Positions 5,779 through 19,649 of a DNA stretch of 20,139 bases are shown here, in pieces. The DNA is taken from positions 1-20,139 of IMG/VR virus record IMGVR_UViG_3300025112_000253. One strand, given 5' to 3'. Both the position numbers and the translations under genes were made by a program. Numbering within the stretch: the stretch's first letter is position 1; the number at the start of each line of letters is the position of its first letter. Below the pieces are notes generated by a model. The model searched no databases. It saw only the letters and a program-made list of their open reading frames with translations, and was not told the origin of the DNA. The stretch comes from a virus.

Positions 5779-5786
5779 TAAATAGT
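5779..5786 (-). promoter_or_regulatory. ACTATTTA late-type motif upstream of tape measure
   Basis: Coding-strand ACTATTTA lies 20 bases before the tape-measure ATG and 11 bases after a hairpin terminator. It is one of seven exact copies in the window, all intergenic. The upstream sequence TATAAA (coding strand) makes this the copy most like a T4 late promoter. Promoter function is inferred. Confidence 0.5.
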
Positions 5787-5791
5787 TTTAT

Positions 5792-5822
5792 AAAAAAAAA
5801 GACAAGAACTAGTCTTGTCTTT
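5792..5822 (-). terminator. Rho-independent terminator after the chaperone ORF
   Basis: A perfect 10-bp stem (5798-5807 with 5813-5822) and a 5-base loop overlap the TAA stop of the preceding ORF. On the coding strand a run of Ts follows the stem at once. It separates the tube/chaperone unit from the tape-measure unit. Confidence 0.85.
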
Positions 5823-6132
5823 ACTTCTTTGGTGCCTGGGCGCGCGGATCCGGGTTATTGTGTGCTGTGAGTGTTTGTGATTTGCCGCCGCCCTTCGAAG
5901 CCTGCTCCATCGCTTCGTTTTCTTGTTCTATTTGCTGAATTAGCCTTTGAGTAAACCATGTTCTAAGACCAACGGGCAAATTGTAAGCTTCTGTGAATGA
6001 CCACCCCCCGGAATATTTTAGAAAGAAAAACTGCTCATAGATGTTTTCCATGTAATCATCGGTCAGGCCAAAAAAACTCCGCTCCCAGCGGTACCTCCAT
6101 GTCCTGTGAGTATTCGCACTCGGGGCACTCAA
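5821..6132 (-). CDS. Short ORF overlapping the gp26-like gene; probable frameshift extension (tail assembly chaperone part)
   Basis: This frame overlaps the end of the gp26-like gene by 77 bases. The farthest start, TTG at 6132, gives 103 residues, but the first 21 are an out-of-frame copy of gp26-like coding and no ribosome-binding site supports that start. The only internal ATG candidate (6051, MENIYEQ) also lacks a GGAG-type site, unlike the other genes here. The likely expressed part is the 82 residues from GLTDDYMENIYE onwards, made by a +1 ribosomal frameshift at the T7 run (6070-6076) and giving a 365-residue fusion. It contains YEQFFFLKYSGGW and LPVGLRTWFTQRLIQQIEQE and has a polar C-terminus. 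Its place between tube and tape measure is that of the G/GT-type tail chaperones. The frameshift is inferred, not shown. Confidence 0.6.
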   Translation of the reverse strand: MSAPSANTHRTWRYRWERSFFGLTDDYMENIYEQFFFLKYSGGWSFTEAYNLPVGLRTWFTQRLIQQIEQENEAMEQASKGGGKSQTLTAHNNPDPRAQAPKK

Positions 6133-6919
6133 AATATTGTTTAAGATCTATGTTCGGTGCTGCTAGCTTATAGGCCATGCGCAGATGTCGAGAATCCATT
6201 GATGGAATATTATTAATAACGTAGTTTCTTGCTTCGGCACTATCGTCTTCATTTACCGCAACGAGTAGGTTAGCCAACTGATTGGTTACATTGTGTTCTT
6301 CACCCTTTCTTTTACGGGCGTTGGTAACAGAAGAAGCAAGATTCTTTTCATCGTGACCAACAAGAAGCCTAAAACGAACGTCTATGGATGTTTTAGGCAA
6401 CGTAGTTGTAAACGTGCCATCTCCATGATCCACCAACTCAAGCTGGTGCGCATCTTCTCCTCTATAAACATTTGCCTCTTTTAAGTCAAATGTATAACGA
6501 TTTATTTCGCCGCAACCTGGACAAGTTACATTTGTTGAATAATCGCTGCCGTATCCAGAAGACCTAATCGCAATAATAATTGCGTTTCTATCTCCAACAA
6601 GCAATGTATTTGGGTCAATGCTTTTATCTACAATAATGCTCTCGATAACTCTATCCAAAGCAACGCCTTTCTTAAGAAGGGTTCTGGATGTCAAAATATC
6701 CTCTTCTCTAGCGGTCATTTGCTTAAGTTCAATACAGTCTTTGTCGTGTAGCGGATGTCCTTCTGGATAAAACCTTCCTCCTGATGGAAGATCGACAAAC
6801 TCTGTGGGTACGACGAATGCTAACGCCATACCACCTTTGTTATCACCTTGCATTACGTGTTGGGGGACCGGACTTGATGTGGTCTTTTTCGCTCCAACGC
6901 GACTTTTATTTCTTGACAA
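6056..6919 (-). CDS. 26: gp26-like baseplate hub / tail assembly chaperone protein with two CxxC pairs
   Basis: The 287-residue protein has features of the T4 gp26 family: a VDLPSGGRFYPEGHPL segment near residues 42-57, then KQMTAREEDIL. Two Cys pairs follow, CPGC (133-136) and CPEC (265-268), spaced like a zinc ribbon. T4 gp26 acts in baseplate hub assembly. The gene sits between tube and tape measure, where other tailed phages place frameshifting tail chaperones. Its end contains GAG TTT TTT TGG and, just before, a GGGAGCGGAG sequence. Four codons after the T run comes TGA. Initiation is at TTG (6919) with an AGAGGTG site 5 to 7 bases upstream; a short inverted repeat brackets that site. 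It is somewhat longer than T4 gp26 (208 residues). Family call is fairly sure; the chaperone role is inferred. Confidence 0.7.
   Translation of the reverse strand: MSRNKSRVGAKKTTSSPVPQHVMQGDNKGGMALAFVVPTEFVDLPSGGRFYPEGHPLHDKDCIELKQMTAREEDILTSRTLLKKGVALDRVIESIIVDKSIDPNTLLVGDRNAIIIAIRSSGYGSDYSTNVTCPGCGEINRYTFDLKEANVYRGEDAHQLELVDHGDGTFTTTLPKTSIDVRFRLLVGHDEKNLASSVTNARKRKGEEHNVTNQLANLLVAVNEDDSAEARNYVINNIPSMDSRHLRMAYKLAAPNIDLKQYFECPECEYSQDMEVPLGAEFFWPDR
6068..6086 (-). other. Candidate +1 programmed ribosomal frameshift site
   Basis: On the coding strand the gp26-like frame reads GAG TTT TTT TGG. Slipping +1 on the second TTT re-pairs perfectly (TTT to TTT) and moves the ribosome into the overlapping ORF at GGC CTG ACC. 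A GGGAGCGGAG sequence (6077-6086) ends three bases before that second TTT, the same spacing as the stimulatory SD-like element of the bacterial prfB +1 site. The overlapping ORF has no start site of its own. An indel error in the T7 run would be the main alternative. Confidence 0.5.
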
Positions 6920-6945
6920 TATACACCTCTATTTTAAAATATTGT
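6916..6945 (-). other. AT-rich inverted repeat around the gp26-like start
   Basis: Seven-base arms (6916-6922 and 6939-6945) flank a 16-base loop that holds the AGAGGTG ribosome-binding site, and one arm contains the TTG start codon. If it forms in the mRNA it could lower translation of the gp26-like protein relative to the upstream tube protein. It is AT-only apart from one G-C pair, so stability is low. Confidence 0.25.
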
Positions 6946-7536
6946 TTATGCTGTGGTCACTTTATCGAAGAACGTCGTTGCGGTGGATGACCCCGCACCC
7001 ACGTTGGCCAACTCAACGGTAGCCCAGTCGTACTTTAAAGTGACCGAAATTTCTGATAAATCATCTTCTCCATACGCCATATCGCCGTATTTAACTTCTG
7101 TCATAAAGGAGTTATTAAGAGTCCATGTCTCGACCGCAGCGCCATCACCATCATACTGAATGATCTTCACTTGCCCTAGGGCGCCTGCTGCGGATGATTT
7201 GGATATGGTGGCCAGCTTGTCCGAAGCCGCCGGCGGCGCATAACCAGATGCCTGCATAATATTAGAAAAGGTTGCGGCTGCGTCTGGGTTAACGGGGTCG
7301 ACCAGTGTCATGACCACATCATTCCAAGTAATCGAGCCGGGATAATAAAATGTATGGTTTAAATACTTGTGTTCTGCGGCTGCAATGGTGAAGGATGGCT
7401 TTGACACAGTCTTTGCATACCAAAGTAGGGTATCAGTGCTCAAGCCAGTCATCTGCACCTGGAATCTAAATTTTCTTTTTGGGTCCTTAAGACCCGTGGT
7501 CGACGTGTCTCCGAAATCGGTTGTCCAGAATGACAT
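6946..7536 (-). CDS. 19: Tail tube protein (gp19-like)
   Basis: The 196-residue protein has the typical contractile-tail tube pattern: DPKRKFRFQVQM at about 18-29, WYAKTVSKPSF near 39-49, HTFYYPGSITWNDVVMTLVDP near 61-81, and a C-terminal EISVTLKYDWA. It polymerises into the inner tube through which DNA passes, inside the sheath. It is slightly longer than T4 gp19 (163 residues). The ATG at 7536 has a GGAG site about 9 bases upstream and an ACTATTTA motif 34 bases upstream. No terminator is visible between the sheath gene and this one, so it can be made both by readthrough from the sheath message and from its own signal, fitting the need for many copies. It is followed after 26 bases by the gp26-like gene. 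Confidence 0.88.
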   Translation of the reverse strand: MSFWTTDFGDTSTTGLKDPKRKFRFQVQMTGLSTDTLLWYAKTVSKPSFTIAAAEHKYLNHTFYYPGSITWNDVVMTLVDPVNPDAAATFSNIMQASGYAPPAASDKLATISKSSAAGALGQVKIIQYDGDGAAVETWTLNNSFMTEVKYGDMAYGEDDLSEISVTLKYDWATVELANVGAGSSTATTFFDKVTTA

Positions 7537-7570
7537 TATTTGGGTACTCCTGTTGTGTGCGTTCTTATTT

Positions 7571-7578
7571 TAAATAGT
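7571..7578 (-). promoter_or_regulatory. ACTATTTA late-type motif upstream of tail tube
   Basis: Coding-strand ATACTATTTAAAATAAG lies 34 bases before the tube ATG, in the short gap after the sheath stop. It is an exact copy of the shared octamer. Function is inferred from its repeated placement. Confidence 0.5.
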
Positions 7579-7593
7579 ATCTTATTTTCTTTT

Positions 7594-10500
7594 TTAATCA
7601 TTAAATCCTACGCCAGTTCGGGTAACAACGAAGTCAAGCGCAATAAATTCAATTGCTCGCGCCGGCTGTATCTTAATCTTGGCGTATAGGATATTACTAT
7701 CAATGAGCCAGTCTTGATCTGTTTGGCCAGTGACTGCAAGAAGCTCCGGCGGAATATCAGCATCACTCTGCACGGCTAGCTCGTAGTTTGTGATACCATG
7801 TTGTGTCAGAATATTCGACAAGAATGGATCTACTAGGCCTCGGAAGTTATTCCATGTGGCCTCTACGTTCTGCTCGAACAGAACTTGGTTAGCAAGAACT
7901 GCAATCGACTTCTTAACATAGTTCATGAGCCTTCTGACATTAATTCTATCTAAGGCTGATGATTCGCCCTGTAGTGTCTTCTGGCCAAAGACTACAACTC
8001 CGCTTCCCGGGAAGGAGGCAATCGGGTTGATGTCGGCCGCATAAAGGGTATCTCTATCATCAGACGTCAATCTTTCACTGACATTCACAACTGGGATATT
8101 GGCCGCGCCCTCCGTAAGGCCGCCGCGGTTAAAGCCAGCTGGAGCGAACCAAAGCTTTGTTCTTTTCTCTGAACTAGCTATGACACCTACCATGGCTACA
8201 GAAGGCGGCACCCACACAAGCTGTCCTGTGTTAGCATCGCGGGTTTGAACCCATGGATAAAATGTGCAACCGTAGCTACTATTCAGTGGTGTGCCGTCGG
8301 CTCTGTTGTTTGCGACTGCAACTGGCGTTGTTCCAACTCGGCTTGACTTATCTGCATAATAGACTTCGTGTGTTGGGATATAAACGCTTGCTAGGTCAAC
8401 TATGCCCAACGAATCGCCGCGGTTTGTGCACACATTAGTAATCTTGTTATTTAAGCCAGTATTTGTGAGACCTGGGGCCAACAACATATTCATATCGACA
8501 GATTCAGGATCTCTGGTTAGGGCGATGGCCTTGTTCCACGTATAATAAATGGAACTGCCTGCTTCAGTGCTGCTACCAATTCCATTGTTATACATCGGAT
8601 CCGGCACACGAATATTAAAGCCGTCGGAGCCGCCCCAGAAGGGAACAGTGAACTTGTCATAGCCGGCGTCTAGAAGGCTCTTATAAGTATTGGAACCTGT
8701 GGCTGTATAGCTTGTGCCGTCCACTCTGGAGCCGGATCTATGGAAATAGTTACTGCCGCTGGTTGCGACACTGCTGTTAACAATGTCATCCAGTGTAAAG
8801 ATATATGCATATGAATCGATGCCGGTGATCTCGCTTCCGACCGGGTTATCTGCGAAGCCCTTATAAAGCAGTCTATGCACATCAGCGCAACTTTGGTCAT
8901 GACGCGTACTAGTGGCTGTCCGAGTGGTTTGCATTCCAAAGTAGGCGCGTGTTGGCTGGCTTAAGCCGCCATCAGAGGCAGAGTTACGAATTCTCACGGA
9001 CGGGAACTTCATCGAGCATGTGAGGTTAATTGAGGCACCTTCACCCCAAGCTATGGCGGACGAAAGCGGCGATTGTGCCACTGCCTTAAGACCTGTGTCT
9101 GGCAAATATCCATCCACAATGATAAACTTATTGCCCAGGGTGGTCCCATCCGAGCCAGTGTTCTGAGTAAATGAACCAGAGAACGTCACGTCTGAATATT
9201 TCGGAGGACCGAAATATCCCCATGGCAGAAGCGTCTCAAGTCCGCCTGCGCCGGCATCAATACTATCATCCATCTGCACCCTAATGTACTTGGAAATATT
9301 GGGGTACCCGCCCGGAATTTTCGCTACCAATCTCGGGTAAGTGTGGGTGGTCGTGTCCCACGTCCACTCCTGGGTACCAATTTGGCGTGCAATATAGTTG
9401 GGAGAGGTTGGATTGAGGGTAAGATTATCGAATCTTTCTACGACCTGTACATCGTTGTCTGTATCACCAAACTTTCTGACTACAAGAGAAAATGTTCCGT
9501 AAGGGGAGGCCGTAGACTGTGATTGCTTAAGTCTTTCAATTGAGATCTTAAGGTTTCTCTGTGTCCACTCACCATGACCGCGGTCGATAATGCGGAAAAG
9601 TCTTTGCGAGTCTTCAGCCTTAAAGCTAGTTGCGCTACCCTGGTCCTGGCCAACGATCCAGCTAGTTCGAGCTGTCGAACCTGCCGTCAATGCGGCCTGG
9701 CCGAGCATGTTTGCGGGAGTTTCATTGTCGCTTGATCCAGTTAGCTGAAGGCCGGCGATCACACCAACAAGATTGCCACTTGTCAAAGACGCATCTCTTA
9801 GCTCCTGCTCATAAGTCTCTCCTAACCAATAATCTCTTTCGGATGTGGAGGGGTAAAAGTTGCCGCCAACCCTCAATTGTGGGTTAGTGTTAAACTTCTT
9901 TCTAATGAAATCTGCACTAGTATCATCGAGGTTAAAGGCAATCGTTTCGCCGCGGCCGTTCGAGCCACTGATGACAACCTTAAACCTACCATTGTCATCA
10001 GAGTTAATCAAAGTGGCGGATCCGGTTATATCGGCGGGGTCTGTGGCGCTAGATGTTCCAAAAAGACGTCCTCTAAGAGAAATTGAACCGCCATCCAAGT
10101 ACCATACGGCAGCTAACCGGAAGGAGTTGGAGCCTGTAAATGCGAATTCGATTGTCTCCGCATCGAATGAGGCCGAAGGAGCTACCCAAAGACCAATGGC
10201 GCCGCCGCGCGTGCCTTCATTTGCAGTTAATAGGTTGTCGGTTTTCCAACCAGCCTGCGGGTCATCTCCAGAATCTTTCTCACCGTAGTACTCTTCTCCC
10301 AAAACTCTAATGTATGTTAGTGGGGCTATATTGGCTTTTAAGTATGCTTTGGCTGCGTAGGTACCATACATTGGTGACTGGCCGCTGTTTCCAGCACGGT
10401 AAACATCACCACCCTGGAAGCCTGGGACCGTGTCACCGAAATTAGCAACAAATTGTTCCCATGATTTTACTTTAATTGGTACCATGGCCGGCCCTTTCTT

Positions 10501-10626
10501 GGCGCGGCCGATTATTACAGCGCCTATAGCGTCTGCTGATGCCGGCATCTGAGAATTATCTGTCTCGATAACTTGAACGCCTGGCGCGGTGTCACCGCTC
10601 ATGAATCTAAAGCTGCTTATGCCCAT
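7594..10626 (-). CDS. 18: Tail sheath protein (gp18-like), unusually long
   Basis: The 1010-residue protein has sheath hallmarks at both ends. Near the N-terminus are SGDTAPGVQVIETD, IGAVIIGRAKKGPA and a SWEQFVANFGD segment with AAKAYLKA following. Near the C-terminus are INPIASFPGSGVVVFGQKTL, RINVRRLMNYVKKSI, FEQNVEATWNNFRG and a final segment containing ARAIEFIALDFVVTRTG. These ends form the conserved sheath core that contracts to drive the tube through the host envelope. T4 gp18 has 659 residues, so about 350 extra residues sit in the middle (roughly 130-800), which is Gly/Ser/Asn-rich and presumably forms surface domains. The ATG at 10626 has an AAGGAACC site. An ACTATTTA motif lies 69 bases upstream, after a probable terminator. 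No terminator is seen before the tube gene. Confidence 0.92.
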   Translation of the reverse strand: MGISSFRFMSGDTAPGVQVIETDNSQMPASADAIGAVIIGRAKKGPAMVPIKVKSWEQFVANFGDTVPGFQGGDVYRAGNSGQSPMYGTYAAKAYLKANIAPLTYIRVLGEEYYGEKDSGDDPQAGWKTDNLLTANEGTRGGAIGLWVAPSASFDAETIEFAFTGSNSFRLAAVWYLDGGSISLRGRLFGTSSATDPADITGSATLINSDDNGRFKVVISGSNGRGETIAFNLDDTSADFIRKKFNTNPQLRVGGNFYPSTSERDYWLGETYEQELRDASLTSGNLVGVIAGLQLTGSSDNETPANMLGQAALTAGSTARTSWIVGQDQGSATSFKAEDSQRLFRIIDRGHGEWTQRNLKISIERLKQSQSTASPYGTFSLVVRKFGDTDNDVQVVERFDNLTLNPTSPNYIARQIGTQEWTWDTTTHTYPRLVAKIPGGYPNISKYIRVQMDDSIDAGAGGLETLLPWGYFGPPKYSDVTFSGSFTQNTGSDGTTLGNKFIIVDGYLPDTGLKAVAQSPLSSAIAWGEGASINLTCSMKFPSVRIRNSASDGGLSQPTRAYFGMQTTRTATSTRHDQSCADVHRLLYKGFADNPVGSEITGIDSYAYIFTLDDIVNSSVATSGSNYFHRSGSRVDGTSYTATGSNTYKSLLDAGYDKFTVPFWGGSDGFNIRVPDPMYNNGIGSSTEAGSSIYYTWNKAIALTRDPESVDMNMLLAPGLTNTGLNNKITNVCTNRGDSLGIVDLASVYIPTHEVYYADKSSRVGTTPVAVANNRADGTPLNSSYGCTFYPWVQTRDANTGQLVWVPPSVAMVGVIASSEKRTKLWFAPAGFNRGGLTEGAANIPVVNVSERLTSDDRDTLYAADINPIASFPGSGVVVFGQKTLQGESSALDRINVRRLMNYVKKSIAVLANQVLFEQNVEATWNNFRGLVDPFLSNILTQHGITNYELAVQSDADIPPELLAVTGQTDQDWLIDSNILYAKIKIQPARAIEFIALDFVVTRTGVGFND

Positions 10627-10695
10627 TTTTTTTGGTTCCTTATGTTTGCTGGGGTTCTATCAAATTATAGACTAAATTATCCCCGCAATCATCTT

Positions 10696-10703
10696 TAAAT
10701 AGT
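10696..10703 (-). promoter_or_regulatory. ACTATTTA late-type motif upstream of tail sheath
   Basis: Coding-strand AAATACTATTTAAAG lies 69 bases before the sheath ATG and about 22 bases after the T run of a probable terminator. It is an exact copy of the octamer. The leader that would result is longer than in most other units here. Confidence 0.5.
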
Positions 10704-10725
10704 ATTTCAGAATTCAAAAGTCTCT

Positions 10726-10769
10726 AAAAATCCGGAACTATACTAACAAACGAGCAAATGTTTCCGGAA
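10726..10769 (-). terminator. Probable terminator after the gp15-like gene
   Basis: On the coding strand, arms TCCGGAAAC and GTTCCGGA (about 10760-10768 and 10731-10738) pair with one bulged A around a loop of about 21 bases, and five Ts follow (10726-10730). The loop is long, so strength is uncertain. The remaining bases of the 174-base gap hold the ACTATTTA motif and the sheath leader. Confidence 0.5.
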
Positions 10770-10800
10770 GTGGTTTTTTGCCAATAAATTCCTTTATCCT

Positions 10801-11682
10801 TTATGTAATGGAGTCGTCCCCGGGAAACGCGCTCAGAACTGTTTCACTTGGATATGTTATTTCTACCACATTCTCATCAATTCTCACTAGCTGGCGATCA
10901 TCGTTGGGGCCCTCTCCTATCAGATATCCCAATATTCTAATTGTAAATTCGGTCGTAAACATGCGTGAATCTTCGCCCAAATCATTAACATTGTTGTTGT
11001 GGTTAAAGTCTTTGTCAATGAAAGCTTCATAGAGGTGCCCATTTCGCCTCAAAAGGAAGGAATTGATCTGGCCTGTACGAACCATGAATGGTGTTAGCAG
11101 TTCGTTCATCTGTTGTTGATATTCACTTTTGATCGATATCTTATATTCAACGTTCACATATATCGGAATTGGAATAGAAAGGTATTGAATAACGTATTTT
11201 TTGCCGGTTCTTGGGAACCAGGGGTCTCTGCTGCCAGCGCCGCCCGGAAGGTCCCGAGTATTGCCAACAACAGCATAATTTCTTGTTTTATCAGGAACCA
11301 TTCGTTTCGCTACAACCATTCTTCCTGTACGGCCATTTTTTCTATCTGAGTATATATGAGCCTGGTAGCTACCTTTTCTTGTTGGGTCTTTAGTGATGGT
11401 TGTTCTTTCAATACTCAAAAGCGGCATTTTCAATGCGCCGCCATCATCACGAAGACTTTTGTCATTTTTAATTTGATATGCGCGTTCTGGTGTCTGCCAC
11501 AAAACTGGCACTTCTGTGAATCCTTCATTGGTGTTTGAGCGTAGCCTTAAATTCTCTTTTAGCCACGAAACTATAGAATAATCTATATTCTCGACGTCAG
11601 ACGCCAACACTCCCAATTCTTTTAAAGTACTAGAGCTAGCGCCTTCGGGCAGCATTGCGAAATCGAAATTATCAGGTAGCAT
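10801..11682 (-). CDS. 15: Tail sheath stabiliser / tail completion protein (gp15-like)
   Basis: The 293-residue protein fits the T4 gp15 pattern. An early EVPVLWQTPERAYQI segment (near 57-71) is followed by PLLSIERTTITKD. Later come an IPIPIYVNVEYKISIKSEYQQQMNELLTPF segment with the usual spacing, and near the C-terminus MFTTEFTIRILGYLIG. In T4, gp15 caps the finished tail and joins it to the neck proteins gp13 and gp14. The gene order here (gp13-, gp14-, gp15-, gp18-, gp19-like) is the T4 order and supports the call. The ATG at 11682 lies inside the end of the gp14-like gene (11-base overlap), so translation is probably coupled. A probable terminator follows. No catalytic residues are expected. 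Confidence 0.7.
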   Translation of the reverse strand: MLPDNFDFAMLPEGASSSTLKELGVLASDVENIDYSIVSWLKENLRLRSNTNEGFTEVPVLWQTPERAYQIKNDKSLRDDGGALKMPLLSIERTTITKDPTRKGSYQAHIYSDRKNGRTGRMVVAKRMVPDKTRNYAVVGNTRDLPGGAGSRDPWFPRTGKKYVIQYLSIPIPIYVNVEYKISIKSEYQQQMNELLTPFMVRTGQINSFLLRRNGHLYEAFIDKDFNHNNNVNDLGEDSRMFTTEFTIRILGYLIGEGPNDDRQLVRIDENVVEITYPSETVLSAFPGDDSIT

Positions 11683-12160
11683 CGAATAGCCCCTTTCTTG
11701 CGCGGCGACATCGGGCCGAGATCTCGAAACCGTGTTGCACCTGGCCGAAGAGTTTTGTATCTTCGCTTAATTTAACTATCTCGTAGTAATAATCTCCGTA
11801 CAAAACAAAATCTCCCTCGCGAACATAAAGGTCTTGGTCATCCTCCAACCTTCTTTTGTGAAAATGAACATTAATTTCCCAACTTTTGTCTATTCCGGCT
11901 CCAGCCATGTATTCTGTTGCCAACTCCGTAAACTCAACTAGCGCAAAAACCCTAACAGGGGGTAGATATGTCTTTTCTATAGCTTCGCCATACATATCAT
12001 GGAAATCTGTTGTTTTCATGTCTATGGGATAATAAAGAATCTGCTGTCCGATGACTTTTTCAATAAGTTCATCATTGACTTGCTTTACGAGATCTCGCTC
12101 TTTCTTGCCAAAAAATAGCGGTGGTGGCGGGGTTGCTGGTTTGCTCCATTCATTAGACAT
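11672..12160 (-). CDS. 14: Neck protein (gp14-like)
   Basis: The 162-residue protein matches the layout of T4 gp14. A Gln/Tyr segment GQQILYYPIDM (near 38-48) leads to DFHDMYGEA. A central E.NVHFHKRRLED region follows, then REGDFVLYGDYYYEIVKL and FGQVQHGFEISARC near the C-terminus. The last two resemble the EGD..YFP....FEI and FYQLGQ stretches of T4 gp14. It would work with gp13 in closing the filled head and docking the tail. It is shorter than T4 gp14 (256 residues), missing a C-terminal extension. The start at 12160 lies six bases after the end of the gp13-like gene, and the next gene overlaps its end by 11 bases, so the three neck/tail-completion genes form one tight unit. Confidence 0.68.
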   Translation of the reverse strand: MSNEWSKPATPPPPLFFGKKERDLVKQVNDELIEKVIGQQILYYPIDMKTTDFHDMYGEAIEKTYLPPVRVFALVEFTELATEYMAGAGIDKSWEINVHFHKRRLEDDQDLYVREGDFVLYGDYYYEIVKLSEDTKLFGQVQHGFEISARCRRARKGLFDAT

Positions 12161-12166: not shown

Positions 12167-13441
12167 TTATCCTACAAAAATTGGTAATGGCGATGCCTTA
12201 AATACGGTTGCTGTGGCCTCAGCTGTTTCTGAATCGTATTTAACCAACTCCTTATATTCAACCTCCTTGAGCATCTCCGTAAGTTTATCTTTAAGCGCGG
12301 TTTGCTCTTCTTTTGCTTGGGCTAGCAATTCTGAGTGATTCAATGTCACACTTTCGCCCGGAATCGGGATTTGGGTGAATTTGCCTCGAATTTGAGCCAA
12401 CATCTCTTTACACAACGCTAGCGCATATTTTCGAATCCACTGTTTGCCTATTGAGTTTATATTTGTATATGGAATATTGTCAAAAGGCACTGTATTTAAA
12501 TTATTTATACCTTGGGTACCGTCTGTGTATCCAGAATTCTCTTCCCATGGGTTTTGATCGTCAATGTGAAACCTTACCCACATGCGGTCAACTTCAGAGA
12601 AGTCCCAATAACCCGGATCTGGGTAAAGGCGCAGCTTGTTATCTATAATTTCATATGAAAAGTTAGACGTTCTCGTATAAATTGAGTCTTCGTACATCAT
12701 TGACTGCAATTTGTTTTGCCATACTGGAACTATCTCAAATGTCGAGTCGTCTGCGAACTGGCCATACGTAGACATATTGCCGACGGCGCCAATTCCTCCA
12801 TAATAACCATAAAATCTCCAAACTGCGCGAGGTGTAATGTAGAATACCTTCGTTACTATGACCCTCTTGGTGCCAACCAGACCGGAAAATGGGACCGCTT
12901 TATTAGAGTCGTCCAAGCCGGTCGAAGACGCAGTTTCGATGATCTCTTGTAAATCATAATCTTGTTTGTTGGTTGTTGGCTTAAATGATGCCGAATATTG
13001 CGGAAGAGTACCACCAAGGCCTTGCATGGTCATCATTGTGTCGCCGACTTTCTTACTATAACCTGCTTGGAACCTCGGATATGATAGGCTGGCGCTCGAT
13101 GGACCGGTAAGGCGTTCTCCCTTGTGATCAAACGTCCCTGTTGTGGCGCCTAGGACACTTGATAGAACATTTTTGCCTTGATGAAGGTTTATTATATATG
13201 AATATTCTAGAACAGCCTCTTCATAGGCTGAATATACGTTAGATGGAGTAAGCTCAATATCTACAACATCTCCGCCTAACTTTTTGTAAACATACGCAAC
13301 TTGCGCACTGGCGCCACTAATAAATTCTGCTGATGCCGTATAAATTCCAAACGGCAGCGATCCAGTTACTAAATCGGTGCTTCCTGTGGAAGTCAGTATT
13401 ATCGAACTTTGGGTTGATGATGGATCTAAGTTAGTCGGCAC
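12167..13441 (-). CDS. 13: Neck protein (gp13-like)
   Basis: The 424-residue protein has a central FYITPRAVWRFYGYYGG segment and a DNKLRLYPDPGYWDFSEVDRM region. The C-terminal pattern is W..KYALALCKEMLAQIRGKF, then IPIPGESVTLNHSELL, and finally PLPIFVG. That C-terminal pattern is typical of T4-like gp13 neck proteins, which close the head after packaging and bind gp14. It is longer than T4 gp13 (309 residues); the Ser/Thr-rich N-terminal 60 residues may account for much of this. The start is GTG at 13441 with a strong TAGGAGGG site. An ACTATTTA motif lies 20 bases upstream, just after a hairpin terminator. The gene leads a unit with the gp14- and gp15-like genes. Family call rests on pattern memory plus gene order. 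Confidence 0.66.
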   Translation of the reverse strand: MPTNLDPSSTQSSIILTSTGSTDLVTGSLPFGIYTASAEFISGASAQVAYVYKKLGGDVVDIELTPSNVYSAYEEAVLEYSYIINLHQGKNVLSSVLGATTGTFDHKGERLTGPSSASLSYPRFQAGYSKKVGDTMMTMQGLGGTLPQYSASFKPTTNKQDYDLQEIIETASSTGLDDSNKAVPFSGLVGTKRVIVTKVFYITPRAVWRFYGYYGGIGAVGNMSTYGQFADDSTFEIVPVWQNKLQSMMYEDSIYTRTSNFSYEIIDNKLRLYPDPGYWDFSEVDRMWVRFHIDDQNPWEENSGYTDGTQGINNLNTVPFDNIPYTNINSIGKQWIRKYALALCKEMLAQIRGKFTQIPIPGESVTLNHSELLAQAKEEQTALKDKLTEMLKEVEYKELVKYDSETAEATATVFKASPLPIFVG

Positions 13442-13461
13442 ACGTGGGCCCTCCTACTAAA

Positions 13462-13469
13462 TAAATAGT
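13462..13469 (-). promoter_or_regulatory. ACTATTTA late-type motif upstream of gp13-like gene
   Basis: Coding-strand AAACTATTTATTTAG lies 20 bases before the GTG start and 12 bases after a terminator hairpin. Only about five bases separate the motif from the TAGGAGG site, so a transcript starting just downstream would have a very short leader. Confidence 0.5.
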
Positions 13470-13475
13470 TTCATA

Positions 13476-13504
13476 AATACAAAGCTCAACCATATGTTGA
13501 GCTT
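13476..13504 (-). terminator. Terminator after the 72-residue basic protein gene
   Basis: A perfect 9-bp stem (13482-13490 with 13496-13504) closes a 5-base loop. The coding strand continues TTGTATTT. The other side also has a T run, so it might work in both directions, but no gene is seen on the plus strand. Confidence 0.72.
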
Positions 13505-13528
13505 CGTTTTAAATAACCAATAAATTTG

Positions 13529-13747
13529 TTATTTTTTCTTAGTGGTGGCTGTTTTTCGTGTGCTTCTTTTCTTGGTAGTTTTCTTAGATGTAACAGGTGC
13601 TGCGGTTTCGACAGCAATCTCTTCCACAACCTTTTGTGCTACTTCTTCTAATATTGGGGTTGTGTCCTCAACAGTTGTAGCAACTATAACTGCTTCATTG
13701 GCGGCGCGCGCCTTCATTCTCCACATTAATCTTCTACGAGGGTTCAT
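13529..13747 (-). CDS. Small protein with basic histone-H1-like tail
   Basis: The 72-residue protein has three parts. The N-terminus MNPRRRLMWRMKARA is basic. The middle (about 18-50) is acidic and Val/Glu/Thr-rich. The C-terminus (about 52-72) is built of Lys, Thr, Arg and Ser in a TKKRSTRKTATTKKK style, like the tails of bacterial and eukaryotic H1-type histones. I do not know a defined family. DNA or RNA binding through the tail is a reasonable inference. It sits between two terminators with its own ACTACTTA motif and a strong AAGGAG site, so it is probably expressed alone, between capsid and neck genes. That place and its strong signals suggest a virion-associated or packaging-related protein. 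Confidence 0.72.
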   Translation of the reverse strand: MNPRRRLMWRMKARAANEAVIVATTVEDTTPILEEVAQKVVEEIAVETAAPVTSKKTTKKRSTRKTATTKKK

Positions 13748-13765
13748 AGTGTTTCTCCTTGTAAA

Positions 13766-13773
13766 TAAGTAGT
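13766..13773 (-). promoter_or_regulatory. ACTACTTA variant of the late-type motif
   Basis: Coding-strand AAAACTACTTATTTAC lies just before the AAGGAG site of the 72-residue gene. It differs from the octamer by one base but has the same A-rich left flank and position. It follows a terminator by about 87 bases. Confidence 0.4.
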
Positions 13774-13850
13774 TTTAAAATGTTGAAAACGAAAATCTCA
13801 GAAATTGTAAGCGAAAAAAATTTGGCAGATCGACATTTTTAAGGTTTGGT

Positions 13851-13888
13851 CTCCAAAAGAAAACCCCGCCCCGTAAAGGGCGAGGTTT
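13851..13888 (-). terminator. Terminator after the 194-residue structural protein gene
   Basis: An 11-bp GC-rich stem (13861-13871 with 13878-13888, one G-T pair on the coding strand) closes a 6-base loop and is followed on the coding strand by TTTTCTTTT. It is a convincing rho-independent terminator. Confidence 0.88.
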
Positions 13889-13916
13889 AATGTATTAGCA
13901 AACTTTAAAGGTTTAA

Positions 13917-14501
13917 TCAGGCCCCTTCAGTGTCGCCAGCATCAATATGCATGTATTCCACAATCCACACTGCCGTTCCGGCTGTGGTGACAGATACATT
14001 AGTCAAAAGCGTGTTGAAATACAATGTACGAGCCGTGGCCGTATAAGTACCATCTGCCGCCAATGCATCTGCATCCGTTGTCGCCGAATTAAAGGCAGCA
14101 AGGATTGGACCGCCGCTGCCGTCAGCTGCTTTGCCGCGTTGGGCAATGTGCAACACGGCGCCTTTGACAACCGTTGTACCAGCATCGATGATCTCGTCAG
14201 TTTGTTCAGTAACAATCTGTCCACCTCCGGTAGCAGTGCCTACTCCAAATCCGAAATCGCCACTGGCAAAAACCGGTGACACAGGAAATGCAAGATAAAT
14301 TGCATTTAAAACTGTGCCCGCTGGTTGGGTCCACGTTACCTCCGAATCACTGTTTTGCACAGCCGCAGACGTGTTTGCCAGTTTTACTGTTTTGACACAG
14401 CCTCCAAAAGCTGTACCGTCAGGTACACTCCAAGAGATCTCTCTCTTTAAATTTTCTAATAGAGCTTCGACTCTCGCCAAGCCTATTCTTTTTGTTCCCA
14501 T
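13917..14501 (-). CDS. Putative virion structural protein following the capsid gene
   Basis: The 194-residue protein starts MGTKRIGLARVEALLENLKRE, a helical, basic N-terminus. A Gly/Thr/Ala-rich, probably all-beta body follows, with segments such as TWTQPAGTVLNAIYLAFPVSP and ending WIVEYMHIDAGDTEGA. I cannot assign a defined family. An N-terminus of this kind is familiar from structural proteins of marine phages, and the location directly after the capsid gene fits a head decoration or head-associated protein. It has its own ACTATTTA motif 68 bases upstream, a GGAGGG site before the ATG at 14501, and terminators on both sides, so it is a single-gene unit that can be set to its own level. Structural role is inference. 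Confidence 0.65.
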   Translation of the reverse strand: MGTKRIGLARVEALLENLKREISWSVPDGTAFGGCVKTVKLANTSAAVQNSDSEVTWTQPAGTVLNAIYLAFPVSPVFASGDFGFGVGTATGGGQIVTEQTDEIIDAGTTVVKGAVLHIAQRGKAADGSGGPILAAFNSATTDADALAADGTYTATARTLYFNTLLTNVSVTTAGTAVWIVEYMHIDAGDTEGA

Positions 14502-14569
14502 AATTTAAAACCCTCCATTTATGTGTTTATAATTTAGGTGAGACAAAAGATGTACTCCTGCCTCACACA

Positions 14570-14577
14570 TAAATAGT
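14570..14577 (-). promoter_or_regulatory. ACTATTTA late-type motif upstream of the 194-residue protein gene
   Basis: Coding-strand GAAAACTATTTATGTG lies 68 bases before the ATG and 17 bases after the strong terminator that ends the capsid unit. The leader between has a GTGAG/CTCAC pair around a GGAG that is not followed by a usable ORF. Confidence 0.5.
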
Positions 14578-14584
14578 TTTCCAC

Positions 14585-14618
14585 ATAAAGAAGACCCCCG
14601 CCTTTTTCAAGGCGGGGG
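14585..14618 (-). terminator. Strong terminator after the major capsid protein gene
   Basis: A 10-bp, mostly GC stem (14595-14604 with 14609-14618) closes a GAAA tetraloop on the coding strand and is followed by TCTTCTTT. It is the strongest terminator in the window and closes the scaffold-capsid unit. Confidence 0.92.
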
Positions 14619-14675
14619 CTTTCTGTGTCACGTTTAGCCGTGCTTTTTACCTAATATGTAACAAATGTTTATCTA

Positions 14676-16514
14676 TTAGGATGTAGCTCCAGCCTCACCG
14701 ATCATACCTCGTACAACAACTAGGCCATACATATCGGGACGAACCATCTTCTTCGCATAACGAGTCATGACTCCCTTACGGGGCACGAAATCATCCGGTC
14801 CAAAGATAGTAGGTGTGGTCTGTAGCGGCACATAAGGTGCGTATACATATCCGCTTTCAAGGAAAGAGGATCCACGTCGACCAACCAAGATGAGGTTACG
14901 ATAGAAATACGGATCAACGTATATATCGAACTTCTTGGTTAGAGAACCGACCTTAACCGCACCAATGGAACCACGCTCGTCGTCAGCAGTGACGGAAGCA
15001 CGGAAACCAGCGGTGAACTCAAGAATGTTGGCAACTTCAGGTCCGCAGACGACGAAGTTAGCGCCACCACGCAGAGTCTTACGGTGGATCGCGGCTGATA
15101 CATCGTTAATGGTCTCGACAAGAGTCTCATACCACTCACTGACTGTACCGGTGAAGTCCGGAGCAGCAGAGCTAGCGCCAATTTCGGCACCAGTTGTACG
15201 GTTCACGAACAGACCCGGCGAACGGGACCAATACTGCGTACCAGCTTTCGAACCCTTAATGAGGTCCTCAAGGATCTCACGGTCGATCTCAAGAGCAATC
15301 TGCTCAGAGAGAATACTGGTAAGCTCAACCTCAGCATCAAGGTTGTGGTAGGCGTTGAGGTCTTGACCCAACTCCGGTGTCCACTTAGCCTTCAGCTTCT
15401 TGGTGATAGCGGTCACAGCCACGGAATCGACCTTAATGTCGATCTCGGGGATCTTCTCGTTATTCTCCAAGCCCCACGGGTCGTCACCGACTACGGAACC
15501 AATAGCACCACCAGTGACGAAGTCGTCAACAATGGGCCAGGATCCCGAAATTATGTTTGCTCCACCATCGCCTGGGTACAACGTACCACCGCCGCCCGCT
15601 GCGTGTGTTGAACCGGTCAGAAGCTCCTTCAACTGCAGAGCACTTGCGGCACCATCATACGATGCGATAACAACAATAGCGTGAGTAGATGCTGAGCCAG
15701 TAAAGCGCGTAAGACGCTTAAGCTGAACACCATACCGCGCTGATGCCGCGGATTCTGACGAGGCCATCTTGCCCATACCACCATAGCCGGATGAACTCGA
15801 AAGCACAATTGCATTTAGGTTACGAACACCCTCAACTACGTCGAAGTCGGTAAGGCCGCTCATAAGTATGCGACCAACGGCAACAGTTGCTGTACCAGAC
15901 TGAGACTCAAGCTCAGGATCGAACTGACAAAGCTTCGGAACATCGCCGGCGGAAGAACTATACACACTTGATGTAATATATGCAATTGTAAACACCCCGG
16001 AACCCGTCGGAGACGAGTAGGCGTTGTTAAGGTTATATGCACCTTCCTCAGCTTTTTCCTCAGTAATCAGAACACCGTCAACGATGCCCTTGGCAACACG
16101 ACCGCCACCATATAGTGACTCTTCATCACCTTGAGGATTACCGTAACCTAGACGGGGCAAGCCCGCGCCATCAGTGGAGACAGTGAAGTCAAGGAAGAAG
16201 ATGAGACCACTCGGTAGGCTCATCGGCTGTACACTAACAAGATCGTTAGCGATTAGGCCAGCGAAAACACGACGAACGATGGGGAATGCGACGGCCGCGA
16301 AGCCCTCAACAGAACCACCCTTCATTGTGCTAGTTTCGCGTAGCAACTCTTTTGCTTGGTTTTCAAGCAGGCGCGCCATGGTTTGACGACTTTGTTCATT
16401 ACCGATCCCCTCTAAGAGACCGGTCTTCTCCCACTTGGAAAGAAGAGCGTGGCTTTCAGCACGCATATCACGATTGACAATACCTTCTGTCAATCTTTCT
16501 ACAATACTAGACAT
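14676..16514 (-). CDS. 23: Major capsid protein (gp23-like)
   Basis: The 612-residue protein shows the T4 gp23 pattern. The N-terminal pro-region carries TGLLEGIG and MARLLENQAKELL, then VAFPIVRRVFAGLIANDLVSVQ and MSLPSGLIFFLDF (near 74-110). Near the C-terminus are GRRGSSFLESGYVYAPYVPL and a YAKKMVRPDMYG segment. It forms the hexameric head shell. T4 gp23 (521 residues) is cut by the prohead protease at an (I/L)xE site; LRE at 58-60 is the best candidate here. It is longer than gp23, presumably in the insertion region near 150-330. The ATG at 16514 has a full-length TAAGGAGGTGAT ribosome-binding site, the best in the window, as suits the most abundant virion protein. It follows the scaffold gene by 29 bases, and a strong terminator follows it. 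Confidence 0.93.
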   Translation of the reverse strand: MSSIVERLTEGIVNRDMRAESHALLSKWEKTGLLEGIGNEQSRQTMARLLENQAKELLRETSTMKGGSVEGFAAVAFPIVRRVFAGLIANDLVSVQPMSLPSGLIFFLDFTVSTDGAGLPRLGYGNPQGDEESLYGGGRVAKGIVDGVLITEEKAEEGAYNLNNAYSSPTGSGVFTIAYITSSVYSSSAGDVPKLCQFDPELESQSGTATVAVGRILMSGLTDFDVVEGVRNLNAIVLSSSSGYGGMGKMASSESAASARYGVQLKRLTRFTGSASTHAIVVIASYDGAASALQLKELLTGSTHAAGGGGTLYPGDGGANIISGSWPIVDDFVTGGAIGSVVGDDPWGLENNEKIPEIDIKVDSVAVTAITKKLKAKWTPELGQDLNAYHNLDAEVELTSILSEQIALEIDREILEDLIKGSKAGTQYWSRSPGLFVNRTTGAEIGASSAAPDFTGTVSEWYETLVETINDVSAAIHRKTLRGGANFVVCGPEVANILEFTAGFRASVTADDERGSIGAVKVGSLTKKFDIYVDPYFYRNLILVGRRGSSFLESGYVYAPYVPLQTTPTIFGPDDFVPRKGVMTRYAKKMVRPDMYGLVVVRGMIGEAGATS

Positions 16515-16520
16515 TTTAAA

Positions 16521-16532
16521 ATCACCTCCTTA
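16521..16532 (-). promoter_or_regulatory. Near-perfect ribosome-binding site of the capsid gene
   Basis: Coding-strand TAAGGAGGTGAT is complementary to the 3' end of bacterial 16S rRNA over its whole length, with the ATG seven to eight bases later. The ATAAATA just upstream (16535-16541) resembles a T4 late promoter core but is too close to leave the site intact if it sets the 5' end. Confidence 0.8.
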
Positions 16533-16543
16533 TATATTTATGA

Positions 16544-17752
16544 TTATTTTATTCCAGCTAGTTTTTTCATCCGATCCTGGAATGGATCAGACGCCGTGGA
16601 CTCATGACGAGTCGCACGAATAACAGATGTACGATTACGACTGATAGCTTCGCTCAATGATTGTGGGCCTCTCTTAGGAGTGGTCTCCATTGTGCTTTGA
16701 AGTGTTTCATACATCGTCTTCGCTTCTGTTACAGAACCAGCATTGGAAATAGCTTCGACAATTTTTGTTTTTTGCCGCTCATTTAGGGAGGTATTTCGCA
16801 ATACGCGGTTCGTATAAAGCAAGCGAGCATTGGAAAGGTTTACATCCTGCATACCTTCTCGCAACTCTTGAATTGCTTGCTTATATTGGTTGTTTTGCTC
16901 TTTAAGTTGGTTATTTTCTGCAACCAACTCTTCTTGAGCTTTGTTCAAATCTTTTAAATCTTCTTTTACATCGTCACTCTGTGCGCCGGCAATTTCTCTT
17001 TCTTGCTCATGCTTGAGTTGTGATGTGGGGCGGCCGGCCCAGCCAGATAGCTCTGCGCCTAAATCAACTGTGAGCTTTTCTGCGATGGCGGCGACGAGAG
17101 AATCCAAATTCTCCTCTTGCACGTCTTCGTTGGCATCGGGCTTGTTGTCCTCTTCGAGGCCGGCGTTTTTCATCGCATCAGAATCGGCTTCTTCTGCGGC
17201 GGCCGATCCGGCAAGAGCAGCAGCGCTGTCGTCGTTGCCCTCGTCTTCCTCGGCCTCTTCACCAGCAAAGGAGCCAGCATCCGTGGCCTCGCCAATGTTA
17301 ATTTCAACATCTTCGCCGTCTTGAAGCTCTTGAAGTGCTTCTTGTAGGGCACCAAGATCAATAGACACCTCTACTTGCTCGCCATCGGTAGGCATGCCTG
17401 ACAAATTTTTGCCATCAAAGTCAGATAGACCATTGGTGGCCGCATAAGGAATGTCACCTTCGTTCTCAGCAACTTCCTCGGCTTCGCCCTCTTCTTCGGC
17501 TGCCATGGGATCGCCCATATCGACGTCGGCTGCCATCGGATCCATCGCTGGGTCTGCGGCGGGGGCGCCCATCTCTTCCGGGGGCATATCTCCGCCCATA
17601 TCAAGGGCCATATCATCTTGTTCTAAGATATGGTCTAAGGTTTTTCTAACTTCATTAGAATACTTCTCTATTACAATATCTTCTGCATTTTTTAGCGCGG
17701 TTTCACGTAGCGCTGCGGCATCAACGATTGCCTCCTTAAGCAGATTGGACAT
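16544..17752 (-). CDS. 22: Prohead core scaffold protein (gp22-like)
   Basis: The 402-residue protein is very acidic between about 45 and 215, with runs of Asp, Glu, Ala, Met and Gly. A probable coiled coil lies near 265-310 (NKAQEELVAENNQLKEQNNQ). The basic C-terminus ends DPFQDRMKKLAGIK. Acidic, coiled-coil scaffolds with this kind of C-terminus lie directly upstream of the capsid gene in T4-like phages (gp22). They form the core that guides head assembly and are then degraded by the prohead protease; LLKE near the N-terminus and LREG in the coil fit (L/I)xE-type cut sites. It is longer than T4 gp22 (269 residues). The protease gene itself (gp21) is not in the window. The ATG at 17752 has a TAGGAG site and an ACTATTTA motif 32 bases upstream. 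Confidence 0.78.
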   Translation of the reverse strand: MSNLLKEAIVDAAALRETALKNAEDIVIEKYSNEVRKTLDHILEQDDMALDMGGDMPPEEMGAPAADPAMDPMAADVDMGDPMAAEEEGEAEEVAENEGDIPYAATNGLSDFDGKNLSGMPTDGEQVEVSIDLGALQEALQELQDGEDVEINIGEATDAGSFAGEEAEEDEGNDDSAAALAGSAAAEEADSDAMKNAGLEEDNKPDANEDVQEENLDSLVAAIAEKLTVDLGAELSGWAGRPTSQLKHEQEREIAGAQSDDVKEDLKDLNKAQEELVAENNQLKEQNNQYKQAIQELREGMQDVNLSNARLLYTNRVLRNTSLNERQKTKIVEAISNAGSVTEAKTMYETLQSTMETTPKRGPQSLSEAISRNRTSVIRATRHESTASDPFQDRMKKLAGIK

Positions 17753-17784
17753 AAATTAAACTCCTATTTGACAATGACTCAAAA

Positions 17785-17792
17785 TAAATAGT
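17785..17792 (-). promoter_or_regulatory. ACTATTTA late-type motif upstream of scaffold and capsid genes
   Basis: Coding-strand AATAATACTATTTATTTTG lies 32 bases before the scaffold ATG. It would serve the scaffold-capsid unit. A TATAAATG (17812-17819) a little further upstream is one base from the T4 late core and is an alternative. Confidence 0.5.
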
Positions 17793-17840
17793 ATTATTAA
17801 ACATTAAAGCCCATTTATACCGTGTTTAACTTCAAAGTGA

Positions 17841-17858
17841 AGACAAAAATATTTGTCT
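17841..17858 (-). terminator. Weak hairpin at the end of the fiber-like gene
   Basis: A 7-bp AT-rich stem (17841-17847 with 17852-17858) overlaps the stop codon of the fiber-like gene. No T run follows directly on the coding strand, so it may be a weak terminator or an mRNA 3'-end stabiliser. Confidence 0.3.
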
Positions 17859-19047
17859 ACTCATCTTCTTCTATCGGGATAAGCGCCATTTTGAATTTCT
17901 TTCCGGTTTTGTTGTTAATCACACACAGGTAATCTTCTTCCTCAACCACGGTCCAATCACCTCTATCGTTTTTAAGATGTAAGTCGCCTGTGTACACGTT
18001 GGCCCAGCGCAATGCAGCCGAACCAAGGTTGAGATTGTTGTCTGTAGCTGGCAAAACATGACTGCCGGCCGTGACGGACCCACTCGTTGCCAGTGTAGAG
18101 CCCAGCGTGGCGGCTCCCACCATATGTAATGTGGTAGAGCCTGATAGATCTGTGTCGCTAACCGATAACGCTTCAGTGGTGTTGTCACAGAGAAGCTTAA
18201 TTTCGCCGCCAGTGCCTTGGTTTACAATAAGAAGATTTCCGCCGGCTCCCTGTTTAACATATGCTTTTTCTACATGGTTAGTGAGGAATCTAAGATAAGC
18301 ATCTGTGCCAGACGCGGCGTCTACAGCTACTACCGTTGCACCGGGGCCGTTAACATGCAAGTCGTATAAGGGGTTTGTAAGACCTACACCAAGATTCCCC
18401 GAGAAGTGACTTTCTCCGCTAGCGCTGATTGATGTAACTGTGAGTGCGCCTGAACCAGAGATTGTTGTGGCTGTTACTGCTTGCGCTGATGTCGAGCCGG
18501 CTAGTGTAGTAGATCCCGAAACCGATAGAGTGTTTCCAAGAGTGGTGGCGCCAACAGCTTGCAACGTGCTTGAGCCTGAGATGGGCCCAGTGGAAGTTAA
18601 ACCTACTGAGGTAAGTGAACCGCTGGCTGCAATTGTGCTGCTAAACGTTGCGGCGCCAACATTGTGAAGGGTACCAGACCCAGAGATGTTACCGGCCGAT
18701 GATTCAATATTGTATACCCTGGTGGAGTTTGAGTATAAATCAAGGCTTCCTGTTCTCGCGTGGACATCATCGGCCGAGTTGCCAAAATAAGATGACCCAC
18801 TAGAGTGAATTTCAGAAATACTTTTTATATGATAGCTGCTGGCTGAGATGGCACCTGAGACGACAAGCGCGCCGGTGAGAACGAGCGTGCTAGCGGCATA
18901 GCCGTGCACAGCCGCAGTGTGGTACATAAAACTTGTTGTGCCACTAAGTGCGTTTGTTCCCGTTAGGAACTGAACTGAACCAGTCGGACCTGCAACGTCA
19001 GGCCCGACATCGGTGCAGTCTACATATGCCCACCCAAAAGTAGCCAT
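17857..19047 (-). CDS. Repeat-rich fiber-like virion protein
   Basis: The 396-residue protein is rich in Ser, Gly, Thr and Ala. It has three copies of a roughly 24-residue unit of the form SGS.TL..VGA.TL..TL..SGS (about 121-144, 166-189 and 301-324). A GNLGVG....PLYDLHVNG motif lies at about 218-234, of the kind seen in phage tail fibers, and the C-terminal domain (about 336-396) contains LGSAALRWANVYTGDLHL and DRGDWTVVEEEDYLCV. Trimeric fiber-like shafts are built from such repeats. Because the gene lies between bS21/unknown genes and the prohead scaffold, it could be a head fiber or a whisker-like protein rather than a tail fiber. The ATG at 19047 follows GTAGGATAG and may be coupled to a mini-ORF ending five bases earlier. 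No chaperone gene is adjacent. Confidence 0.68.
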   Translation of the reverse strand: MATFGWAYVDCTDVGPDVAGPTGSVQFLTGTNALSGTTSFMYHTAAVHGYAASTLVLTGALVVSGAISASSYHIKSISEIHSSGSSYFGNSADDVHARTGSLDLYSNSTRVYNIESSAGNISGSGTLHNVGAATFSSTIAASGSLTSVGLTSTGPISGSSTLQAVGATTLGNTLSVSGSTTLAGSTSAQAVTATTISGSGALTVTSISASGESHFSGNLGVGLTNPLYDLHVNGPGATVVAVDAASGTDAYLRFLTNHVEKAYVKQGAGGNLLIVNQGTGGEIKLLCDNTTEALSVSDTDLSGSTTLHMVGAATLGSTLATSGSVTAGSHVLPATDNNLNLGSAALRWANVYTGDLHLKNDRGDWTVVEEEDYLCVINNKTGKKFKMALIPIEEDE

Positions 19048-19051
19048 AGGT

Positions 19052-19129
19052 CTATCCTACCCCAATAGAACTCGAAGATCTTGAGTATAAGATAGGCTGT
19101 ATAATTGAATTTTTGTTAGGTCTTCTCAT
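19052..19129 (-). CDS. Possible 25-residue mini-ORF
   Basis: An ATG at 19129 lies seven bases after AAGGAG, which itself overlaps the stop of the 152-residue gene. The frame runs 25 codons (MRRPNKNSII...SSSIGVG) to a TAG at 19052, five bases before the ATG of the fiber-like gene. The ribosome-binding site has no other start to serve. It may be a real tiny protein or a leader that couples translation to the fiber-like gene. No family recognised. Confidence 0.45.
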   Translation of the reverse strand: MRRPNKNSIIQPILYSRSSSSIGVG

Positions 19130-19140
19130 ACTCACTCTCC

Positions 19141-19599
19141 TTAAAAGGTACTGCATGCAGCAAAAACAGTAAGTTCCGCGTGATCGGCGCAAACAAAAGC
19201 AACTTTGTCTATTCCCGCTATATCATAACGCCGATACTCTCTATCAGATGGCACCTGTGCTGCGGGCGCGCGGGCGATATTCCCAATGTCAATCGAGGCC
19301 GCGGCGTTTGCGGTGTTCTGTCCTTGTCCGCCCGCTTCGCTCTCCGGTATTTCAAACCATCGTTGAAATGCGTGGCAATATCCAAAAATAGTAACGGGGT
19401 CGGGATCGTCCGAAGTGGTGAGGTCCTCTACTAGAACATGCAAATATCTTTGATTTTCTGTATCATAGCCTGCAGTTGTTGCGGTAACGCCTAATAGACG
19501 TGTGGTATTGGCCAAAACCTCAACTGCAACACCGCGGCCGGCGCCGGGGTTCAGACTCTTTGGGCTTCTTGTACGTCCCCAACTGTTAAAACCTGCCAT
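19141..19599 (-). CDS. Unrecognised protein, probable virion component
   Basis: The 152-residue protein starts MAGFNSWGRTRSPKSLNPGAGRG. It has a compact, probably beta-rich body with segments YLHVLVEDL, VTIFGYCHAFQRWFEIPE and VAFVCADHAELTVFAACSTF. There is no signal peptide or clear membrane helix. I do not recognise a family. It heads a unit with the mini-ORF and the fiber-like gene, has an ACTATTTA motif 32 bases upstream and a CAGGAG site before the ATG at 19599. Sharing a unit with a fiber-like protein and the general late setting suggest a structural role such as head decoration or fiber attachment, but the sequence does not show which. Confidence 0.6.
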   Translation of the reverse strand: MAGFNSWGRTRSPKSLNPGAGRGVAVEVLANTTRLLGVTATTAGYDTENQRYLHVLVEDLTTSDDPDPVTIFGYCHAFQRWFEIPESEAGGQGQNTANAAASIDIGNIARAPAAQVPSDREYRRYDIAGIDKVAFVCADHAELTVFAACSTF

Positions 19600-19630
19600 A
19601 ATATTTCTCCTGTCTCAATGGTCTTTCAAT

Positions 19631-19649
19631 ATAAATAGTCTCTATTTAT
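19631..19649. repeat. Inverted repeat containing the late-type motif
   Basis: Eight-base arms ATAAATAG and CTATTTAT (19631-19638 and 19642-19649) are separated by three bases. Here the motif occurs in both orientations, and one arm is the end of the bS21 reading frame. Confidence 0.6.
19632..19639 (-). promoter_or_regulatory. ACTATTTA late-type motif downstream of bS21
   Basis: Coding-strand AGAGACTATTTATATTG lies 32 bases before the ATG of the 152-residue gene and just after the bS21 stop. It is an exact copy of the octamer and part of a short inverted repeat. Confidence 0.5.

Follow-up and report, generated by a model that had tools for sequence, protein, structure and literature searches.

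A strand-specific octamer before virion genes of uncultured marine T4-superfamily phages, probably a late promoter element

The octamer ACTATTTA, which marks a clade of phages, stands repeatedly before virion genes in IMG/VR virus record IMGVR_UViG_3300025112_000253, a whole contig of 20,139 bases (here called the window). It is proposed, with a probability of about 0.85, that the octamer in its clade form ACTA[T/C/A]TTA is the late promoter -10 box of a large clade of marine T4-superfamily phages and that it is read by a phage sigma factor related to gp55. Most likely it is a diverged element of the T4 type, in which TA-AA-TA has become TA-TT-TA and the second position is C, as in CTAAATA of phage Aeh1. 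A T-rich box is conserved upstream and a purine downstream, and full-length relatives carry genes of two sigma-like proteins. According to the proposed mechanism, a phage-encoded gp55-related sigma (region 2) would direct host RNA polymerase to the octamer, which would span about -13/-14 to -6/-7, and transcription would start on a purine 6-7 nucleotides (nt) downstream. The second box, approximately GNNTTTTG, would accompany most sites at about -33 to -26, in many cases as the T tail of a terminator lying before the promoter, and may serve as a -35 element for a sigma-region-4-like protein. No described late promoter was found for this uncultured marine phage group, and the literature held nothing relevant on a phage promoter of the sequence ACTATTTA or CTATTTA. 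If the proposal is right, the octamer provides a rule by which late transcription units can be marked in abundant uncultured marine phages.

The octamer and its surroundings

Seven exact copies of ACTATTTA are present in the window, every one on the minus strand, the strand that codes for all genes here; the chance expectation for both strands is 0.69, and none of 100 shuffles reached seven. Together with one ACTACTTA variant they make up eight sites, all of them intergenic, in gaps that account for 5.4% of the window; an order-2 Markov model predicts 0.14 copies on the intergenic coding strand. The first-pass annotation of this DNA had listed the same seven copies and the variant (Table 1) and had noted that genes contain no exact copy, all of which was recovered, with the distance to the start codon measured as 18-69 nt instead of the claimed 15-69. 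When one mismatch was allowed anywhere in the octamer, the window had no excess (29 against 27 expected), which fits a near-strict consensus in which position 5 alone varies.

Relatives were fetched from IMG/VR by their capsid protein (80 records), and in nearly all of them ACTATTTA is confined to the sense strand. The 58 loci (690 kb) that were left once near-duplicates had been discarded held 208 sense and 2 antisense copies, and 176 of the 208 lie outside open reading frames, as called by a simple script. The only enriched single-base variants are ACTACTTA (39 sense against 0 antisense, intergenic) and ACTAATTA (38 against 1), both altered at position 5, where T remains commonest (173 against 0); the other positions are near-invariant. 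The variant noticed at first reading is therefore genuine and the consensus is ACTA[T/C/A]TTA. By contrast with the octamer, neither TATAAATA nor CTAAATA has a sense excess in the relatives. A chance or coding repeat was rejected on the grounds of strand and intergenic placement in the window and of the sense bias of the relatives.

The kind of gene that follows was used as a proxy for timing. Over five long contigs, in which blocks were drawn by hand from homology maps, virion blocks hold 29 intergenic sense copies in 194 kb, and replication blocks (SSB, UvsX, helicase and their neighbours) a single one in 87 kb (p=0.0003). In the 161.7 kb contig G014 the motif stands at 7 of 47 virion-block genes and at 2 of 131 others (p=0.0014), and per-gene tests gave a virion bias for the elements of Flavobacterium phage immuto (p=0.0008) and Microcystis phage Mel-JY01 (p=0.003), described below. 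The comparison of relatives that had been suggested at first reading thus finds the octamer throughout the clade, between genes and on one strand, with its copies concentrated at virion genes.

Downstream of the octamer, with its first base counted as 0, purines prevail at positions 13-14: at index 14 the base is A in.62 and G in.27 of cases, purines reach 84-89% in the relatives, and all eight window sites have a purine at index 14. This peak lies 6-7 nt beyond the octamer, and by T4's -13 to -6 geometry transcription should start at index 13-14. At the three tightest window sites (5779, 13462 and 13766) the predicted start falls at the beginning of the Shine-Dalgarno sequence or just before it, so that any later start would remove this sequence.

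Upstream, a T-box of the approximate form GNNTTTTG is conserved in the relatives at -19 to -12, counted from the octamer's first base. At promoters that follow a terminator, the T tail of the latter tends to fall on this position; nevertheless, the box as a mere terminator tail was ruled out by 40 non-redundant sites with neither a hairpin nor an upstream gene, where T reaches 88% at -15 and 93% at -14, TT is present in 33 of 40 (p=2e-23) and TTT is found mainly at the offset of the box. The A-rich left flank reported at first reading holds in part (A makes up about 50-65% at -2/-3), but the T-rich stretch at -16 to -13, which had gone unremarked, is better conserved.

These surroundings bear on two alternatives that the first-pass annotation had named. 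An operator, or another protein-binding site controlling late genes without being the promoter itself, would agree with an intergenic, strand-specific site near the starts of units (18-69 nt before start codons). The octamer is, however, non-palindromic and always in one orientation, with a fixed purine downstream and a fixed T-box upstream, and the other top sense-biased intergenic octamers either overlap the element, come from ribosome-binding sites or terminators, or are restricted to a single gene; such an operator is regarded as very improbable. Slightly less credit still is given to an RNA element of the leader, that is, an endonucleolytic processing site or a translation signal, for which an AU-rich sequence at this distance from start codons would be suitable. 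Often the octamer lies directly behind an intrinsic terminator and would thus rarely be in an RNA at all, the T-box keeps its spacing with or without a hairpin, and at the tight sites the ribosome-binding sequence begins at the predicted transcription start. One orientation, a fixed purine and T-box, and terminators directly upstream leave both alternatives unsupported.

Relation to late elements of other phages

The late promoter box of T4 lies at -13 to -6 (PMC1524935, PMC2988020) and T4 late promoters are without a conserved upstream element (PMC2988020). The T4 element (TATAAATA, with the gp55/gp33/gp45 system) is likewise an 8-bp box with virion genes downstream and a start about one turn on, the start being a predicted one in the clade. 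The likeness extends to T4-type capsid, sheath, tube and baseplate genes and to a gp55-related sigma in clade relatives. The differences are a TATTTA core in place of TAAATA, a leading AC in place of TA, and the conserved upstream box that T4 lacks. Of the first-pass wording, "different or shifted late promoter element", the former half stands, as the core is different, and the latter does not, as the octamer, relative to the predicted start, occupies the T4 position of -13 to -6. Aeromonas phage Aeh1, with the late promoter CTAAATA and a divergent gp55 (PMC1524935), has in common with the clade a C at -12 in place of A, whereas its centre is AA and that of the clade is TT (or CT/AT). The gp45 clamp (phrog_223) was not recognised in the relatives searched: there was no match in 12 records, and the controls gave none either.

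The TATTTA pattern was absent from T4 and the other T4-like isolates checked, but it was found in three phages of other hosts. In immuto, [AC]TATTTAT stands before late genes (37 intergenic sense copies, 3 antisense), in Mel-JY01 the form is ATATTTAT (20 sense, 6 antisense), and in Rhodothermus phage RM378 WTATTTAA occurs at several gene starts, the core probably preceding virion genes there as well. The downstream purine is kept in all three; the first two positions are relaxed compared with the clade, T or A follows the core, and no clear upstream T-box was seen in any of them. No earlier description of these three late elements was found. A TATTTA core in phages of such far-apart hosts makes it most likely that the specificity is phage-encoded, and this probably applies to the octamer itself. 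The T4-type late box would then have a second sequence class, TATTTA, common to phages of distant hosts.

It may be objected that the sites are ordinary promoters of the host housekeeping sigma, with TATTTA as a degenerate -10 and the T-box as a degenerate -35. The position and the two-box layout do resemble sigma-70 promoters, and late transcription by host sigma has been claimed for phage Ma-LMM01 (PMC5780444). Nevertheless, this explanation is considered unlikely: the octamer, whose 5' ACTA is required, allows far less variation than a sigma-70 -10 box, it is nearly absent from replication blocks, and the core is common to phages of Flavobacterium, Microcystis and probably Rhodothermus, whose hosts' housekeeping promoters differ. 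The Bacteroidota -33/-7 promoter (TTTG / TAnnTTTG, the latter being the housekeeping -7 box), considered since immuto infects Flavobacterium, was rejected for want of a conserved downstream TTTG, which is not conserved after the octamer in the relatives.

The first-pass caution that orientation should not be assumed was reasonable, for in Pelagibacter phage HTVC008M the sense element is the reverse complement, TAAATAGT. For the clade itself, the original sense reading is supported by gene direction, the downstream purine, the upstream box and placement after terminators. At 9 of the 54 genes checked in HTVC008M (L417, KC465899, 5000-53000), ATAAATAGTNNN immediately precedes ATG, and TAAATA occupies -11 to -6 of AUG. 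Combined with T4 geometry, this placement would put the start at the A of AUG, so that late mRNAs of this phage would be leaderless. An earlier published search for pelagimyophage late promoters failed to find any (PMC7029224).

Candidate sigma proteins

The gp55-like late sigma that the first-pass annotation had proposed looking for has a divergent candidate in full-length relatives. The starting point is gp118 of immuto, a weak PHROG match to gp55, with homologues in Mel-JY01 (E=8e-46) and in the full-length clade members G014 (34110-34811, E=8e-34) and G013 (72002-72685, E=4e-33). The PHROG family "late sigma transcription factor" (phrog_234) is matched by 35 of 52 members of the candidate family (best 2.6e-7), and hhalign of the candidate profile with gp55 is collinear over 107 columns (probability 71%, E=3.8e-5). 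No Pfam family other than Sigma70_r2 has matches in more than two members, its own matches (20 of 50) being weak, and tblastn gave a match in Ochrobactrum phage OC annotated as "RNA polymerase sigma factor for late transcription". In an AlphaFold2 model (mean predicted local distance difference test score 80), residues 17-114 are fitted by sigma domain 2 (Z 8.6, 2.5 A over 95 residues), although for a helical protein a Z of about 9 does not settle the matter; all 50 structural neighbours listed in a second comparison are sigma factors by title. Whole-chain matches also place the C-terminal part on region 4, with a large root-mean-square deviation, and from the model the candidate may hold more than the region 2 of T4 gp55. 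Its consensus (alignment A2) has no evident C-terminal clamp epitope like that of T4.

A direct PHROG search of the partial contigs G001-G012 gave no match to gp55, probably because the fragments stop short of the region, given that the full-length G013 and G014 carry the candidate. In the same search set Sigma70_r2 was matched in RM378 only; the sigma encoded by this phage matches region 2 clearly and region 4 weakly. It is likely, judging by these homologies, that the octamer is read by the gp55-like sigma, and the finding points to a divergent late sigma annotated as "hypothetical" in immuto and Mel-JY01.

A second protein, of 79-87 amino acids (aa), with conserved cysteines and the helix-turn-helix of sigma-70 region 4, is encoded in six clade contigs (G007, G009, G011, G013, G014, G015; the G011 copy is cut by Ns), next to a dehydrogenase gene in all five contigs checked. 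PF04545 scores above its gathering cut-off of 24.1 bits in G007 and G009 (40 and 37 bits), the profile matches region 4 of RpoD/SigA in PDB, and the top Foldseek match is sigma region 4 (probability 0.93, E 0.36). At least 355 relatives exist in IMG/VR, and the best 80 of these loci hold 122 sense and 1 antisense copies of ACTATTTA; no match was found in 50,697 isolate phage records. The 80-aa CRLWIDY family (alignment A5) is widespread, its G014 member lying at L321:14475-14729. The T-box and the region-4 protein co-occur in the clade, and immuto and Mel-JY01 yielded neither of them, a correlation that rests on a single evolutionary split and is not a proof.

In T4, gp33 is placed on the polymerase flap. 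A split sigma is put forward here tentatively: the gp55-like protein would read ACTATTTA and a separate 80-aa CRLWIDY protein on the flap would read the T-box as a -35. If true, the clamp-dependent, -35-less system of T4 would here be a two-box, two-protein promoter. The T-box and the region-4 protein make it testable whether a T4-style sliding clamp in place of a -35 is universal in the superfamily.

Several points weigh against the late-promoter proposal. Promoter function in vivo, late use and the pairing of proteins with boxes are deduced from sequence, and the timing proxy depends on the hand-drawn blocks. Some strand-matched copies lie outside virion genes in G013 (186 kb) and G015; the regulon would thus extend beyond virion genes and may take in other genes or times. 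The T-box is weak or absent at 7571, at 19632 and at sites inside upstream genes. Foldseek of the candidate model against PDB ranks sigma factors first with weak E-values (0.11), and the Z-score has the limit given above. Neither sigma gene is in the 20 kb window fragment, the link to them running through relatives whose capsid protein is 55-59% identical; a search with the 1,266-aa baseplate-region protein, aimed at longer contigs, returned its own record only.

Features and gene context of the window

Table 1. Putative promoter elements and terminators of the window
Feature	Position	Strand	Context	Predicted start
ACTATTTA, -10-like element	19632..19639	-	before 152-aa gene 19141-19599	~19625
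ACTATTTA	17785..17792	-	before gene 16544-17752 (prohead-core position)	~17778
Upstream T-box GGCTTTAA	17804..17811	-	of 17785 promoter; window sequence and relatives' consensus	
ACTATTTA	14570..14577	-	before gene 13917-14501	~14563
Intrinsic terminator, 11-bp stem	14594..14619	-	directly upstream of 14570 promoter; T tail overlaps T-box position	
ACTACTTA variant	13766..13773	-	before gene 13529-13747	~13759
Upstream T-box TCGTTTTC	13785..13792	-	of 13766 promoter; window sequence	
ACTATTTA	13462..13469	-	before gene 12167-13441 (head-tail adaptor family)	~13455
ACTATTTA	10696..10703	-	before tail sheath gene 7594-10626	~10689
Upstream T-box GACTTTTG	10715..10722	-	of 10696 promoter; perfect consensus, without hairpin	
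ACTATTTA	7571..7578	-	before tail tube gene 6946-7536; without T-box	~7564
ACTATTTA	5779..5786	-	before tape-measure gene 3092-5758	~5772
Intrinsic terminator, 10-bp stem, T9 tail	5798..5822	-	directly upstream of 5779 promoter	

All window genes are on the minus strand and are ordered as a T4-type virion module: ribosomal protein S21, core region, major capsid gp23 (PF07068), neck, tail sheath, tail tube, T4_baseplate protein (PF12322), tape measure and baseplate. The S21 gene (19642-19887) keeps its position within the virion module in Mel-JY01 and in the window's clade. The next putative late promoter, 19632, abuts its end, so that the end of S21 takes the place upstream where no T-box is present. 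Gene 16544-17752 is followed by the major capsid gene (14676-16514). The 29-nt gap between them (16515-16543) has no ACTATTTA; it holds AAGGAGGTGATTTT, a strong ribosome-binding sequence that recurs in relatives, and a ATAAATATA stretch. The capsid gene is probably co-transcribed from the 17785 promoter.

Two minor observations concern the relatives. A 620-aa protein of G009 (60723-62582) matches Mel-JY01 58325-60178 (E ~1e-293) far more closely than other shared genes do, which suggests a recent transfer. Genes resembling ClpP or head maturation proteases lie outside the virion module in G007 (14547-15173 and 21511-22116), G009 (75291-75968) and G014 (5451-6059 and 133064-133753), with two per genome in G007 and G014.

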